5,775 nt of DNA from an uncultured Prevotellaceae bacterium (GTDB taxonomy: Bacteria; Bacteroidota; Bacteroidia; Bacteroidales; Bacteroidaceae). A program made the position numbers and the translations under genes. This document shows positions 1,535 through 5,775 of the stretch, in pieces; the stretch's first letter is position 1, and each line of letters starts with the position of its first letter. The stretch is from NCBI GenBank assembly GCA_937892315.1, contig CALAVF010000110.1, positions 1 through 5,775 on the forward strand. The letters run 5' to 3'. The notes beneath the pieces are model-generated. The model made no database searches and was not told the DNA's origin. It worked only from the letters and a program-made list of their open reading frames with translations.

Positions 1535-1741
1535 ATGAAAGGAACAAGAATTATTCTGCCCCTCCTGCTTTTACTCATGACCATAGAACTGCTATCAAAT
1601 AGCCAAAGCCAGAGTATTGCCGGGGTATGGATAAACCGACCAATCTATCAGGCCAACCTTTCAACAACTCTGATTCTAAAAAAACATTACATCGAAACAA
1701 TCCGGCGCCACCTCTCCGACTGCAACCAAGGAGTTGCCTGA
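1535..1741 (+). CDS. Short predicted secreted protein, possibly a gene remnant
   Basis: A 68-residue ORF starting at ATG 1535, just after a consensus promoter. An in-frame TTG further upstream at 1436 is ignored because it precedes the promoter. Residues 1-24 look like a signal peptide: MKGTR, then IILPLLLLLMTIELL, then a polar SNSQSQS segment. After this comes IAGVW, reminiscent of the start of the mature part in small lipocalin-like secreted proteins; that resemblance is weak. The remaining 38 or so residues show no recognisable domain. The last 55 bp overlap the 3' end of the convergent gene at 1687. Either this is a genuine small secreted peptide or the 5' end of a longer gene whose body was lost. 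I do not recognise the family. The promoter and signal peptide argue that the start is real. Confidence 0.45.
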   Translation: MKGTRIILPLLLLLMTIELLSNSQSQSIAGVWINRPIYQANLSTTLILKKHYIETIRRHLSDCNQGVA

Positions 1742-3075
1742 TTGTCAATACAGTAAATCATGCTGCTGTCGAGATTGACACAATACAATCCGTCAGAATT
1801 GCGCTGGATAATATACTCCTCAGGGTGTAGCAGTTTGGAACCCAATCGGTTGATGGCAGTTTTGATCTTGGCTATTTTGGGGTTGCGGATGGTGGGGTCT
1901 TCCAGATTGGGCACAGCATCGGCATCACCACCGAACATCCTGTATATCCGCGCATATTTGTCCATCAGCCGCCGCATACGCTCATCGCGCTTCTTCAACT
2001 GCAAACCGTTGTTAGGGCTGTTGAGGTTGAGCCCACCGGTAATCGACTCGGCCAAGGTGAGCACATACAAGGCCTTCTCCGAACGAGTGACCTTCAACTC
2101 CTCGTTGATCTCGCGGAAGACTATCTTCTGACGGAAGGTGTCGAGAAGGATGGTGCTTAACGACTGTTCTTTCATCATGCACAGGTCGATGAGTTGCTTG
2201 AACACGCCGCTGTACACAAAACGGTCTTCACTGTTATAGACATTGCGGAGAATGGAATACTCCGAGTTCATCATCGAGGTGAAACGGAACATGAATTGTT
2301 TGATCTCGCCCATCACATCATCTTCGATGGACAACTTCAGGAAATTGGCGAAGATATGGTCCTCCGACACAGACTCACCCACCTTCACAAGAAGCGAGGG
2401 GTAGGTATCTTGCAGGGCATGAAGATGAAGTTTCCTGCAAAGATGGTTCTTACAGAAATCGACGGTGGTCATGGAGGAAATCTGCTGTTGTATGTCAACC
2501 ATAGCCGACTCAACCAGATTGGGTGTGAGAAAACTTATCACCTCCTTGAACAGTTCCGGGGGTGTGCTCCGATAGGTCTGGGCAATCTGCGGAATATAGG
2601 CGAACTCAAAACCTGCCAATCGCATGGCGTTCTCTATCTCATGGTAATGAACGCTCATCACCTCATTGACACGGGGAGAGAAATCCGACTCCACATATAT
2701 CACTTGTGAATTTTCCAGTTGCAACCCTTGTTGGGGCACCTGCACGCGCACCATCTCTGCATCATACTCACCCTCAAAGCAATAGGCCAGGGCTATCATG
2801 AGCAAAGCCTCGGCCTTGTTGCACTGCCCGTCGGCCAAGGTGATGGCTCGGAACAGTGTCATCAACTCTTCTTTCTCCTTCTTGCTCAGATGGCACAGGT
2901 TGTTGACGGCATCGGCAAAGGTTGTGAAGCGCGCTTCGCTGAGTGCTTCGGCTGACAGTCCATAGTCGGATTTCACTTGTCTGAAAAGAGCCATCTCACG
3001 GCTGTCGATGACGGAATCGGCTTTGATGAGGTCGGTAACGATACGGGCTATGGATATCTTCTCTATTCTGTTCAT
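1687..3075 (-). CDS. TerB-like domain protein with long uncharacterised C-terminal region
   Basis: Intact 462-residue protein. Residues 1-105 form an all-helical, TerB-like (tellurite-resistance B) segment with two acidic motifs in matching places: LIKADSVIDSREM (16-28) and TLADGQCNKAEALL (79-92). These resemble the metal-binding ADGxxxxxE repeats of that fold. No transmembrane segment or signal peptide is visible, so it is probably cytosolic. The remaining 350 or so residues are predicted mostly helical, with no motif I recognise. The C-terminal part (about 380-462) is mixed and ends in a basic, tryptophan-containing tail. TerB-like domains occur as fusions in stress, phage-defence and membrane-associated systems, but a tellurite role cannot be inferred here. 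It stands alone, with its own promoter 24 bp upstream and divergent from the basic protein at 3263. Start ATG 3075 fits the promoter position. Confidence 0.88.
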   Translation of the reverse strand: MNRIEKISIARIVTDLIKADSVIDSREMALFRQVKSDYGLSAEALSEARFTTFADAVNNLCHLSKKEKEELMTLFRAITLADGQCNKAEALLMIALAYCFEGEYDAEMVRVQVPQQGLQLENSQVIYVESDFSPRVNEVMSVHYHEIENAMRLAGFEFAYIPQIAQTYRSTPPELFKEVISFLTPNLVESAMVDIQQQISSMTTVDFCKNHLCRKLHLHALQDTYPSLLVKVGESVSEDHIFANFLKLSIEDDVMGEIKQFMFRFTSMMNSEYSILRNVYNSEDRFVYSGVFKQLIDLCMMKEQSLSTILLDTFRQKIVFREINEELKVTRSEKALYVLTLAESITGGLNLNSPNNGLQLKKRDERMRRLMDKYARIYRMFGGDADAVPNLEDPTIRNPKIAKIKTAINRLGSKLLHPEEYIIQRNSDGLYCVNLDSSMIYCIDNQATPWLQSERWRRIVSM

Positions 3076-4154: not shown

Positions 4155-4757
4155 ATGAAAATGAAAAGGATAATGTTTTTACTTACGCTCATTTTCCCCC
4201 TCTTGACCGTCTACTCATGCGGTCAGGCCAGGGAAGGCAGCAAGGCAAACGATGACCAGCAGAAAGAACTGAAAGGCATCATACGGGCTTACTCCGACAA
4301 AGTGGAGGAGATACTTGAAAAGAATGAAATCCTTACTTCCTTCGATTTTTTCCTCTACGACATCACCCGCGACGGAGTACCAGAACTTTGGGTTGATCAC
4401 GGCAGTTGTGAAGCCGACCGCTATCTGGATATATACACCTATGAGAATAGGCATGCCAAGTTATTATACAACTGTGGGATAGACCATGCCGAATTCCATC
4501 AGGGAAAAGATTATATTCTCATGTGGCAAGCACACATGGGTCTTTCCGATTGGCACCACTTTACTTACGATGGTAAAATAAAAGACACCATTGTTTTCGA
4601 ACAACACCTGAAAGAGGAACAGATTGTTCTCGATTATATCGAGCCACAAGAACCCGAGGTGCCATCGTTCGCTTCCAACGAACAGACTGAGGATGTGGAG
4701 GAATACATCGCCGGAGTTGTCTCCCGCCTCCTCGTCGAGGAAGGGAACAACCGCTGA
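4155..4757 (+). CDS. Predicted lipoprotein with calcium-loop-like motif
   Basis: A 200-residue protein from ATG 4155. An in-frame GTG at 4140 lies inside the preceding gene, and ATG 4161 is a further option. The N-terminus MKMKRIMFLLTLIFPLLTVYSC is a lipoprotein signal with lipidated Cys22; no acidic residue follows immediately (GQAREG). Residues 33-60 form a charged helix. FFLYDITRDGVPELWVD (65-81) is an EF-hand-like loop of the D-x-[NT]-x-D-G-x-x-E-L type (D69, T71, D73, E77), common in Bacteroidota lipoproteins. Then follow aromatic-rich beta-like strands (YLDIYTYENRHAKLLY, ILMWQAHMG, WHHFTYDGKIKDT) and an acidic C-terminal helix. It is probably anchored in the periplasm or at the cell surface. 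Its partner is the small His/Cys secreted protein 5 bp upstream. No enzymatic motif is visible and the specific role is unknown. Confidence 0.82.
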   Translation: MKMKRIMFLLTLIFPLLTVYSCGQAREGSKANDDQQKELKGIIRAYSDKVEEILEKNEILTSFDFFLYDITRDGVPELWVDHGSCEADRYLDIYTYENRHAKLLYNCGIDHAEFHQGKDYILMWQAHMGLSDWHHFTYDGKIKDTIVFEQHLKEEQIVLDYIEPQEPEVPSFASNEQTEDVEEYIAGVVSRLLVEEGNNR

Positions 4758-4833: not shown

Positions 4834-4841
4834 TACCTTTG
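4834..4841 (+). promoter_or_regulatory. -7 element of the reverse transcriptase gene
   Basis: TACCTTTG followed by CACA, 28 bp before the ATG, so the leader is short (about 22 nt). No TTG lies 19-21 bp upstream, so the -33 box is poor. It indicates that the reverse transcriptase has its own start rather than depending only on read-through from the lipoprotein operon. Confidence 0.5.
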
Positions 4842-4869: not shown

Positions 4870-5739
4870 ATGAAAAATATCCTTTCCCTGAACCACAAAG
4901 AAGCCATGGACTTCTTCATGCAGACGGAACAGTTCCACGGATTCGAACTGCCGGAGTATATCACTTTCGACAAGATGCTGGCTTATGTGAAGCAACGCAT
5001 CGGCAACACGCCTTACGAGGAGTGCATCAAAGAAGATACACCGCCCGAGACGTTATCCGACGTCAACCTTGACCTGCTGATGAACAAAGACGGCAAATAT
5101 GCCGTGCGTCCGCTCATTCTCGCCAACCCCTACCTCTACTATTTCCTCGTGAGAGAACTATGCTCCAAAGAGGGGTGGAAGACGGTAAAAGGGTGCTTCC
5201 AGCGGTTCCAGGTACCCCATATCACGGCTTGCGCCCTGCCCGTGATCACTGACAGGAAGGAGAAGTTCTATAAGTCGAACACCATCCTGCATTGGTGGAA
5301 CAGTTTCGAGCAACGCTCAGTGGAACTGTCGCTCGAATACCGTTTCATGTTCTCCTCCGACATCACCAACTGCTACGGGTCGGTCAATCCGCAGTCGTTC
5401 AACCTCGCTTTCGGAGTGACGGACACGACGGAAGCGGCAAAAGACAACCTGGCTATCAGTGCCCACATCCAACAGTTGCTGCGTGCCTTCCAGCAAGGGC
5501 GCAACATCGGCATACCGCAGGGCAGCGCCATCTTCGATTTCCTGGCAGAGATATTGCTGAGTTATGCCGACCTGCGGCTCCACCAGGCGATAGACGCGGA
5601 AGGTATCAACGTGCCCTATGAGGTGCTCCGCTACCGTGACGACTACCGCATCTTCTGCAACGACAAGGACCAACTGGAGCGCATCTCCTATCTACTCCAA
5701 GGAGTGCTGGAAAGCCTCAACTTCCGCATGAACAGCCAG
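4870..5739 (+). CDS. Reverse transcriptase (unknown-group/Abi-like, DRT-type candidate), 3' truncated
   Basis: The first 290 residues of an RNA-directed DNA polymerase; no stop is reached before the adapter at 5740. Visible RT motifs: NKDGKYAVRPLILANPYLYYFLV (72-94, fingers region), SSDITNCYGSV (162-172, motif A with catalytic D164), GIPQGSAIFDFLAEILL (214-230, motif B), and RYRDDYRIF (254-262, motif C with D257 and D258). LESLNFRMNSQ (280-290) is the start of motif D/E, where the gene breaks off. All three catalytic aspartates are present. Known of the family: YRDD rather than YADD, the RPL...P..Y..LV block and the N-terminal SLNHKEAMDFF...LPEY pattern fit 'unknown group' RTs related to Abi proteins, many of them anti-phage (DRT). 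There is no group II intron or retron signature. The exact subgroup, and any C-terminal domain or partner, lies beyond the contig. Start ATG 4870 follows a -7 box at 4834. Its codons look GC-richer than those of the ATPase gene, which hints at transfer. Confidence 0.88.
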
Positions 5740-5775
5740 AGATCGGAAGAGCGTCGTGTAGGGAAAGAGTGTAGA
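5740..5775 (+). other. Illumina TruSeq adapter contamination
   Basis: From AGATCGGAAGAGCGTCGTGT at 5740 to the last base, all 36 bases match from memory the TruSeq universal adapter read-through sequence. Translated in the RT frame it gives RSEERRVGKECR, a peptide well known as an adapter artefact in protein databases. These bases are not genomic, and the contig really ends at 5739. Confidence 0.97.

Follow-up and report, generated by a model that had tools for sequence, protein, structure and literature searches.

The closest described relative of the reverse transcriptase (RT) analysed here is Abi-P2 of E. coli P2-like prophages. PMC9508834 describes Abi-P2 as synthesising DNA without a template, with the Y61F substitution abolishing DNA synthesis and Y46F preserving it, and reports that the P2-EC30 Abi-P2 protein confers resistance to phage T5. 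Class 1 UG RTs are characterised in PMC13174585 by an RT fused to helical repeats and by DNA made without a nucleic acid template. The literature covered treats Abi-P2 as a stand-alone protein of prophages and assigns its DNA product no defence role.

The reverse transcriptase gene of the window and its family

The window, the whole 5,775-nucleotide stretch of DNA that we analysed, contains a plus-strand RT ORF of 290 residues, for which the ORF listing and translation place the ATG at 4870 and the last codon at 5739. The features to which we refer are as follows.

4834-4841, plus strand: TACCTTTG, a Bacteroidetes-type -7 promoter-like box, called from the consensus
4870-5739, plus strand: 5' 290 codons (fingers and palm) of an RT very likely of the Abi-P2 family, from profile, PDB match and alignment
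4957-4959, plus strand: codon of Y30, aligned with Abi-P2 Tyr61, from PDB match and alignment
5359-5361, plus strand: codon of the motif A aspartate D164, from translation and alignment
5509-5526, plus strand: motif B GIPQGS, residues 214-219, from translation and alignment
5632-5643, plus strand: motif C YRDD, residues 255-258, with Y255 equivalent to Abi-P2 Tyr282, from PDB match and alignment
5740-5775, no strand: non-biological Illumina TruSeq adapter remnant, from an exact 36-base match to the adapter

The RT ORF is formally open to the contig end at 5775, and positions 5740-5775 equal the first 36 bases of the Illumina TruSeq adapter. Since aligned relatives also extend about 260 residues beyond window residue 290, the biological sequence stops at 5739. 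The truncation, already remarked upon in a sequence-only reading of this DNA, is thus a library artefact and not a mutation; the portion lost from the window copy is the helical domain at the C-terminus, which in its kin spans about 260 residues. The same reading had described a 112-bp upstream gap and a -7 element belonging to the RT itself, and both are borne out: an upstream stop lies at 4757, and the box matches the Bacteroidetes -7 consensus, TAnnTTTG, 36 nt 5' of the ATG, which gives the RT transcript a very short leader. Motifs A (D164), B and C, reported there as intact, occupy the same positions in our alignment, which includes the catalytic aspartates D164, D257 and D258. An incomplete copy with two relatives (L001 and L024) among housekeeping genes could be a non-functional relic in a chromosomal context; however, the break is adapter and was not caused by mutation, all motifs are intact, and the 290 codons run without stop or frameshift, and we regard a relic as very improbable.

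Comparison with profile collections placed the window gene in a single family. The PADLOC AbiP2 profile (PDLC03744) matched residues 1-290 with 341.5 bits (E 2.1e-102), against 83.2 bits for the runner-up RT_UG14, 67.1 for Drt6, 65.8 for Drt4 and 34.5 for AbiK. Among NCBIfam models, Drt3b (55.6 bits), group II RT (41.3 bits, cut-off 300) and retron St85 (27.8 bits, cut-off 235) all fell far under their cut-offs; the Drt2 profile scored 24.2 bits and Pfam RVT_1 a sub-threshold 25.5 bits, and DGR profiles were absent both from the eight listed NCBIfam families and from the 25 PADLOC families displayed out of 60. The top PDB match was 7R08, the solved E. coli prophage Abi-P2 (E 3.5e-47), with one further PDB sequence matching at E 6.1e-7. 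Group II, retron and DRT2/3/4/5 identities were dropped on their profile scores relative to AbiP2. The gene is therefore very likely an Abi-P2 family RT, which puts a name to the candidate DRT-like defence RT of the earlier reading and answers the profile search suggested there, without the best match to a group II intron or retron profile that would have refuted that reading; taken alone, the window copy is an ordinary further member of this known family.

Half of the candidate database proteins (462 of 924) matched the window RT at E <= 0.001, with identity reaching 68% among the best 120 of the 462. Six records matched in the phage collection, among them the RTs of P2-EC30 and P2-EC58, which align along the full query with 32-34% identity, and 120 matched in the plasmid collection, of which 23 covered at least 80% of the query and all were below 60% identity. 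The AbiP2 profile was found in 18 of 397 genomes from the family of the genome carrying L001 (E <= 1e-50), and at E <= 1e-20 the window RT itself had matches in 6 of the 393 order-sample genomes and 9 of the 395 phylum-sample genomes, each of the three counts including the L001 genome. Two small samples, the genus of G025 (1 of 3) and the family of G696 (1 of 14), returned only the genome on which each was centred. Viral contigs searched with patterns from the window RT itself gave no relative, and a search with an alignment of relatives gave 15 loci, of which L059 was taken up for its gene context. An RT tree had also been proposed, and in our 33-row tree the window RT does group with Abi-P2-type YRDD relatives (L021, L022, L023, L001 and L033), apart from a YVDD subgroup, but with moderate support only (SH-aLRT 82-93 on the forks near it, none starred).

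Other window ORFs offered separate observations. The RT has a GC content of 0.54 and a GC3 of 0.75, compared with 0.45-0.51 GC in five other ORFs of the window, a weak hint of separate origin. On the minus strand, positions 128-1270 encode an AAA_14/DUF4143 ATPase that matches the PDC-S01 candidate profiles of PADLOC, and 1687-3075 encode a 462-residue protein whose N-terminus matches TerB weakly, below threshold. In the protein database the only identical copy of the latter is that of the window; the best kin are 69% identical and one Muribaculaceae-named relative stands at 35%; a search of 393 order-sample genomes, run without a positive control, gave no match at E <= 1e-60.

Fold, priming tyrosine and proposed activity

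The helical half was approached through a relative, the full-length L001 RT of a Muribaculaceae MAG (552 residues, 60% identical to the window RT). Its AlphaFold2 model, built from a 29-row alignment, reached a mean pLDDT of 83.8, and Foldseek against the PDB placed six 7R08 chains on top (TM 0.81-0.84 by target), followed by DRT4 (0.54), UG15, DRT6 and AbiK structures (TM 0.48-0.61 by target). As modelled, L001 carries the whole Abi-P2 fold, including the helical C-terminal domain that stands in place of a thumb, and from this relative we infer such a domain for the window RT. Elsewhere in the family, the 653-residue L033 RT (L033:7314-9275) carries an acidic insert, about 100 residues long, that separates its RT and helical parts.

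The phmmer alignment pairs window residue 1 with residue 32 of the 7R08 chain and is gap-free to residue 50, so that Tyr61, required for DNA synthesis in Abi-P2, corresponds to Y30 and the dispensable Tyr46 to F15. Tyr282 falls on Y255 of the YRDD motif, as expected from PMC9508834, which supports this numbering. Of the 26 rows aligned (the window, 22 loci and three database proteins, with the contig-cut L034, L035 and L036 left out), 25 retain Y30; the exception is L029, whose ORF start is set downstream of the site, with ELPEYYNF encoded in frame immediately 5' of that start.

On this basis the window RT is, in our judgement, quite probably a self-priming, template-independent DNA polymerase that would stop phage by abortive infection. 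At full length, about 550 residues, the protein would fold as an RT lobe and an alpha-solenoid lobe and would assemble into trimers, as does E. coli Abi-P2. The Y30 hydroxyl would take the first nucleotide, and the D164/D257/D258 site would then extend single-stranded DNA on the protein with no RNA template. During infection, this activity would arrest or kill the cell before phage release. Both the DNA synthesis and the defence role are likely by analogy with the enzyme of PMC9508834. Against them stand an identity of no more than 32-34% between the window RT and the E. coli proteins, the reliance on relatives for an intact gene (the helical half being absent from the window), the helicase gene near the RT in 10 of 18 related loci and the housekeeping surroundings of at least 2 of the 18.

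A different mode of synthesis would follow if the gene encoded an ncRNA-templated class 2 RT resembling DRT2 or DRT9. In systems of this kind an ncRNA lies close to the RT, and the downstream flank of the window gene lies beyond the cut; yet the Drt2 profile score is dwarfed by that of AbiP2, the L001 model aligns with DRT9 structures at a TM of only 0.28-0.29 by query, and an Rfam search of the whole window, which ends upstream of the RT's 3' flank, was empty up to E 1. We give this possibility hardly any credence. An upstream ncRNA is disfavoured, as the earlier reading had anticipated in calling the gap short for a long one, by the -7 box lying 36 nt from the ATG and the lack of an Rfam match. 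Its further suggestion of a downstream ncRNA found no support: Rfam gave no match in a window that ends inside the RT, and Abi-P2 is described as template-free (PMC9508834). In the relatives compared by eye, flanks of 66 nt before and 120 nt after the RT revealed no common element suggestive of a conserved ncRNA.

Neighbours of related reverse transcriptase loci

Any partner genes of the window RT would lie past the cut, and the earlier reading, pointing out that some such RTs have partners, had suggested looking at the neighbours of full-length homologues. We inspected 18 context loci, comprising 17 of the 18 AbiP2-matching loci of the L001-family sample and L043 of the order sample; G102 (36% identical) and the RTs of L044-L047 (35-41% identical) were left out of this count. 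A helicase gene adjoins the RT or sits one gene away in 10 of the 18, as listed here.

L021: UPF1-like SF1 helicase, close to the RT
L023: UvrD-type helicase, partial, 221 nt from the RT
L026: DEAD plus UvrD helicase, 274 nt from the RT
L027, L028 and L030: SF1-PIN helicase, 3-4 nt upstream of the RT
L031: SF1 helicase with TBP-TOTE, in two pieces, one gene away from the RT
L033: DEAD helicase, after the DUF1848 gene that follows the RT
L035: SF1 helicase with TBP-TOTE, complete, directly downstream of the RT
L043: SNF2 helicase near the RT

The remaining eight loci are L001, L022, L024, L025, L029, L032, L034 and L036, with a contig end cutting downstream of or within the RT in L032, L034 and L036. 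The AAA_19 domain was found in 8 of 52 genes of the RT same-strand runs (gaps under 300 nt, ORFs chosen mechanically) versus 2 of 133 other genes of the same loci (Fisher p 0.0007), a difference to be read with the facts that a single module recurs in L027, L028 and L030, which are thus not independent, that defence genes cluster anyway, and that one of the two AAA_19 controls is the L026 helicase, put there by the strand rule. The concern that homologues might sit in housekeeping context holds in part: a defence-like context is not universal, at least two of the 18 loci (L001 and L024) looking like ordinary chromosomal, housekeeping surroundings, but a helicase is close by in more than half. 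This proximity suggests that a mechanism resting on one protein, as in E. coli Abi-P2, may be only part of the story.

Several gene arrangements recurred or stood out among these loci. A cassette of a 1900-2000-residue protein, an SF1 helicase-PIN protein and an Abi-P2 RT, 3-4 nt apart, occupies L027:2-10067, L028:2-9707 and L030:7960-13747; its large protein is cut by the locus end, and the first 505 residues of the L027 copy match PADLOC TmtA (E 7.4e-76). In L031:4264-9778 and L035:1-4867, an SF1 TBP-TOTE helicase and a DUF7017 protein stand beside the Abi-P2 RT, upstream of it in L031 and downstream in L035. In L022 a gene resembling GajB lies about 1.2 kb downstream of the RT in the opposite orientation, and a DUF1848 gene directly follows the RT in L028 and L033. 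That RTs of this type have partner genes is not entirely new, given that PADLOC lists a DUF1848 RT partner and that PMC8934634 reports AbiP2-related RTs in CRISPR-Cas loci.

A further arrangement was seen in two close relatives. In the first (L059/L082, from a 44-kb IMG/VR contig), an RT of 557 residues, 62% identical to the window RT, is followed after 9 nt by a 507-residue protein with four S1 stretches, after 1 nt by a 1214-residue AAA_11/AAA_12 UPF1-like helicase, with a 20-nt overlap by an 1838-residue DarT-type protein and after 56 nt by a 239-residue macrodomain protein; upstream on this contig lie two putative integrase-like recombinases. In the second (L021/L087), the RT is 68% identical to the window RT and lies 15 nt after a NusG-like gene, so that the RT is not always the first gene; 27 nt further comes a 1397-residue protein joining S1, AAA_11/12 (UPF1-like helicase) and Ppx/GppA domains, then after 2 nt a 1712-residue DarT-domain protein and after 14 nt a macrodomain protein close to that of L082.

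The two helicases are 41% identical over 893 columns, and that of L059 matches NAM7/UPF1 structures (E 4.9e-21, PDB). The macrodomain matches 5m31 (E 5.6e-29, PDB), a DarG structure. The 1712- and 1838-residue proteins are mutually homologous, and the DarT domain PF14487 was detected in the L021 protein (Pfam, E 3.2e-6) and is precomputed for 114 of the 120 listed among 329 relatives of its ART region, two of which bear the source name 'DarT ssDNA thymidine ADP-ribosyltransferase family'. PDB sequence searches returned DarT at E 0.89 for L087 and not at all for L082, and were otherwise negative, so the DarT-type assignment rests on PF14487 and on DarT-type motifs conserved in three large proteins.

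The RT is optional to the helicase-DarT-macrodomain operon: in G224 an operon without an RT (L084) encodes the helicase, DarT-type and macrodomain proteins, and the G224 RT (L033) lies elsewhere with DUF1848 and a DEAD helicase. This helicase occurs in 5 of 397 family-sample genomes (E <= 1e-20) and was seen beside an Abi-P2 RT only in G025; in G073 helicase and RT are on separate contigs, and the G118 and G144 contigs are cut close to the helicase, with one or both flanks outside the contig. Compact operons of helicase, a 1476-1838-residue DarT-type protein and a DarG-like macrodomain span L084:2407-11671, L087:2427-9000 and L088:6376-16293. An operon search of viral contigs recovered the contig of L059 again and four more distant loci. 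Given the 329 ART-region proteins, the few named ones being from Bacteroidota, this system is likely widespread in that phylum.

These gene orders raise the alternative that the RT is a subunit of a multi-gene defence operon, likely comprising the S1, UPF1-like helicase and DarT-type proteins and a macrodomain antitoxin, with RT-made ssDNA as the DarT substrate or guard. The operons of the 68% and 62% identical relatives, together with the NAM7/UPF1 and 5m31 matches, speak for it. Against it, the full operon is present in only two of the six nearest relatives whose surroundings were analysed (L001, L021, L022, L023, L033 and L059), the L001 RT standing alone, L022 being without a same-strand downstream gene, and L023 and L033 having other neighbours; the NusG-like gene precedes the L021 RT, the core exists without an RT, PDB support for DarT is insignificant or absent, and the window sequence ends at RT residue 290. 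We consider it unlikely for the window RT. Its more specific form, an undescribed Bacteroidales immune operon in which protein-bound ssDNA would be the substrate of, or check on, the DarT-type enzyme, with S1/UPF1-like subunits as phage sensor and the macrodomain as antitoxin, is rather doubtful. Since its Pfam family is named for ssDNA modification, the DarT-type enzyme might use the product of the RT. Our literature search, with the main survey of RT partners outside its scope, returned no published description of the RT-S1-UPF1-DarT-macrodomain order. Mestre 2022 is reportedly a survey of UG/Abi RTs. The partner operons of the relatives are the part worth following and, if the operon reading is true, the role of untemplated DNA becomes directly testable.

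Comparison with known systems

Several described systems resemble parts of these loci. The pairing of RT and DUF1848 in L028 and L033 is that of RTasDUF1848, the RT-associated DUF1848 already in PADLOC's DRT set. The 1397-residue helicase of L021 recalls Mokosh, scoring 319.8 bits against the PADLOC MkoA profile, but it is joined with S1 and Ppx/GppA domains and is followed by a DarT-type gene. The operons of two relatives share with the DarTG toxin-antitoxin a DarT-type ART domain followed by a macrodomain protein; in contrast to DarTG, this ART domain lies within a protein of 1712-1838 residues, after a UPF1-like helicase, which an Abi-P2 RT precedes in two cases.

Lactococcus AbiK and the class 1 UG/Abi RTs DRT4 and DRT6 have an RT plus a helical domain in common with the family described here, and studied class 1 members perform template-independent and in some cases protein-primed synthesis, according to PMC9508834 and PMC13174585. 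They differ in their profile scores against the window RT (Drt6 67.1, Drt4 65.8 and AbiK 34.5 bits) and in their fit to the L001 model (TM 0.48-0.61). The nearest counterpart is Abi-P2 of prophages EC30 and EC58 (7R08), from which the window RT is set apart by an identity of 32-34%, by its Bacteroidetes-type promoter-like box and by the frequent presence of a helicase gene near the RT in its relatives, and with which it shares the RT lobe end to end, the YRDD, GIPxGS and motif A aspartate, the priming tyrosine and, as a feature of the modelled relative L001, the helical C-terminus.
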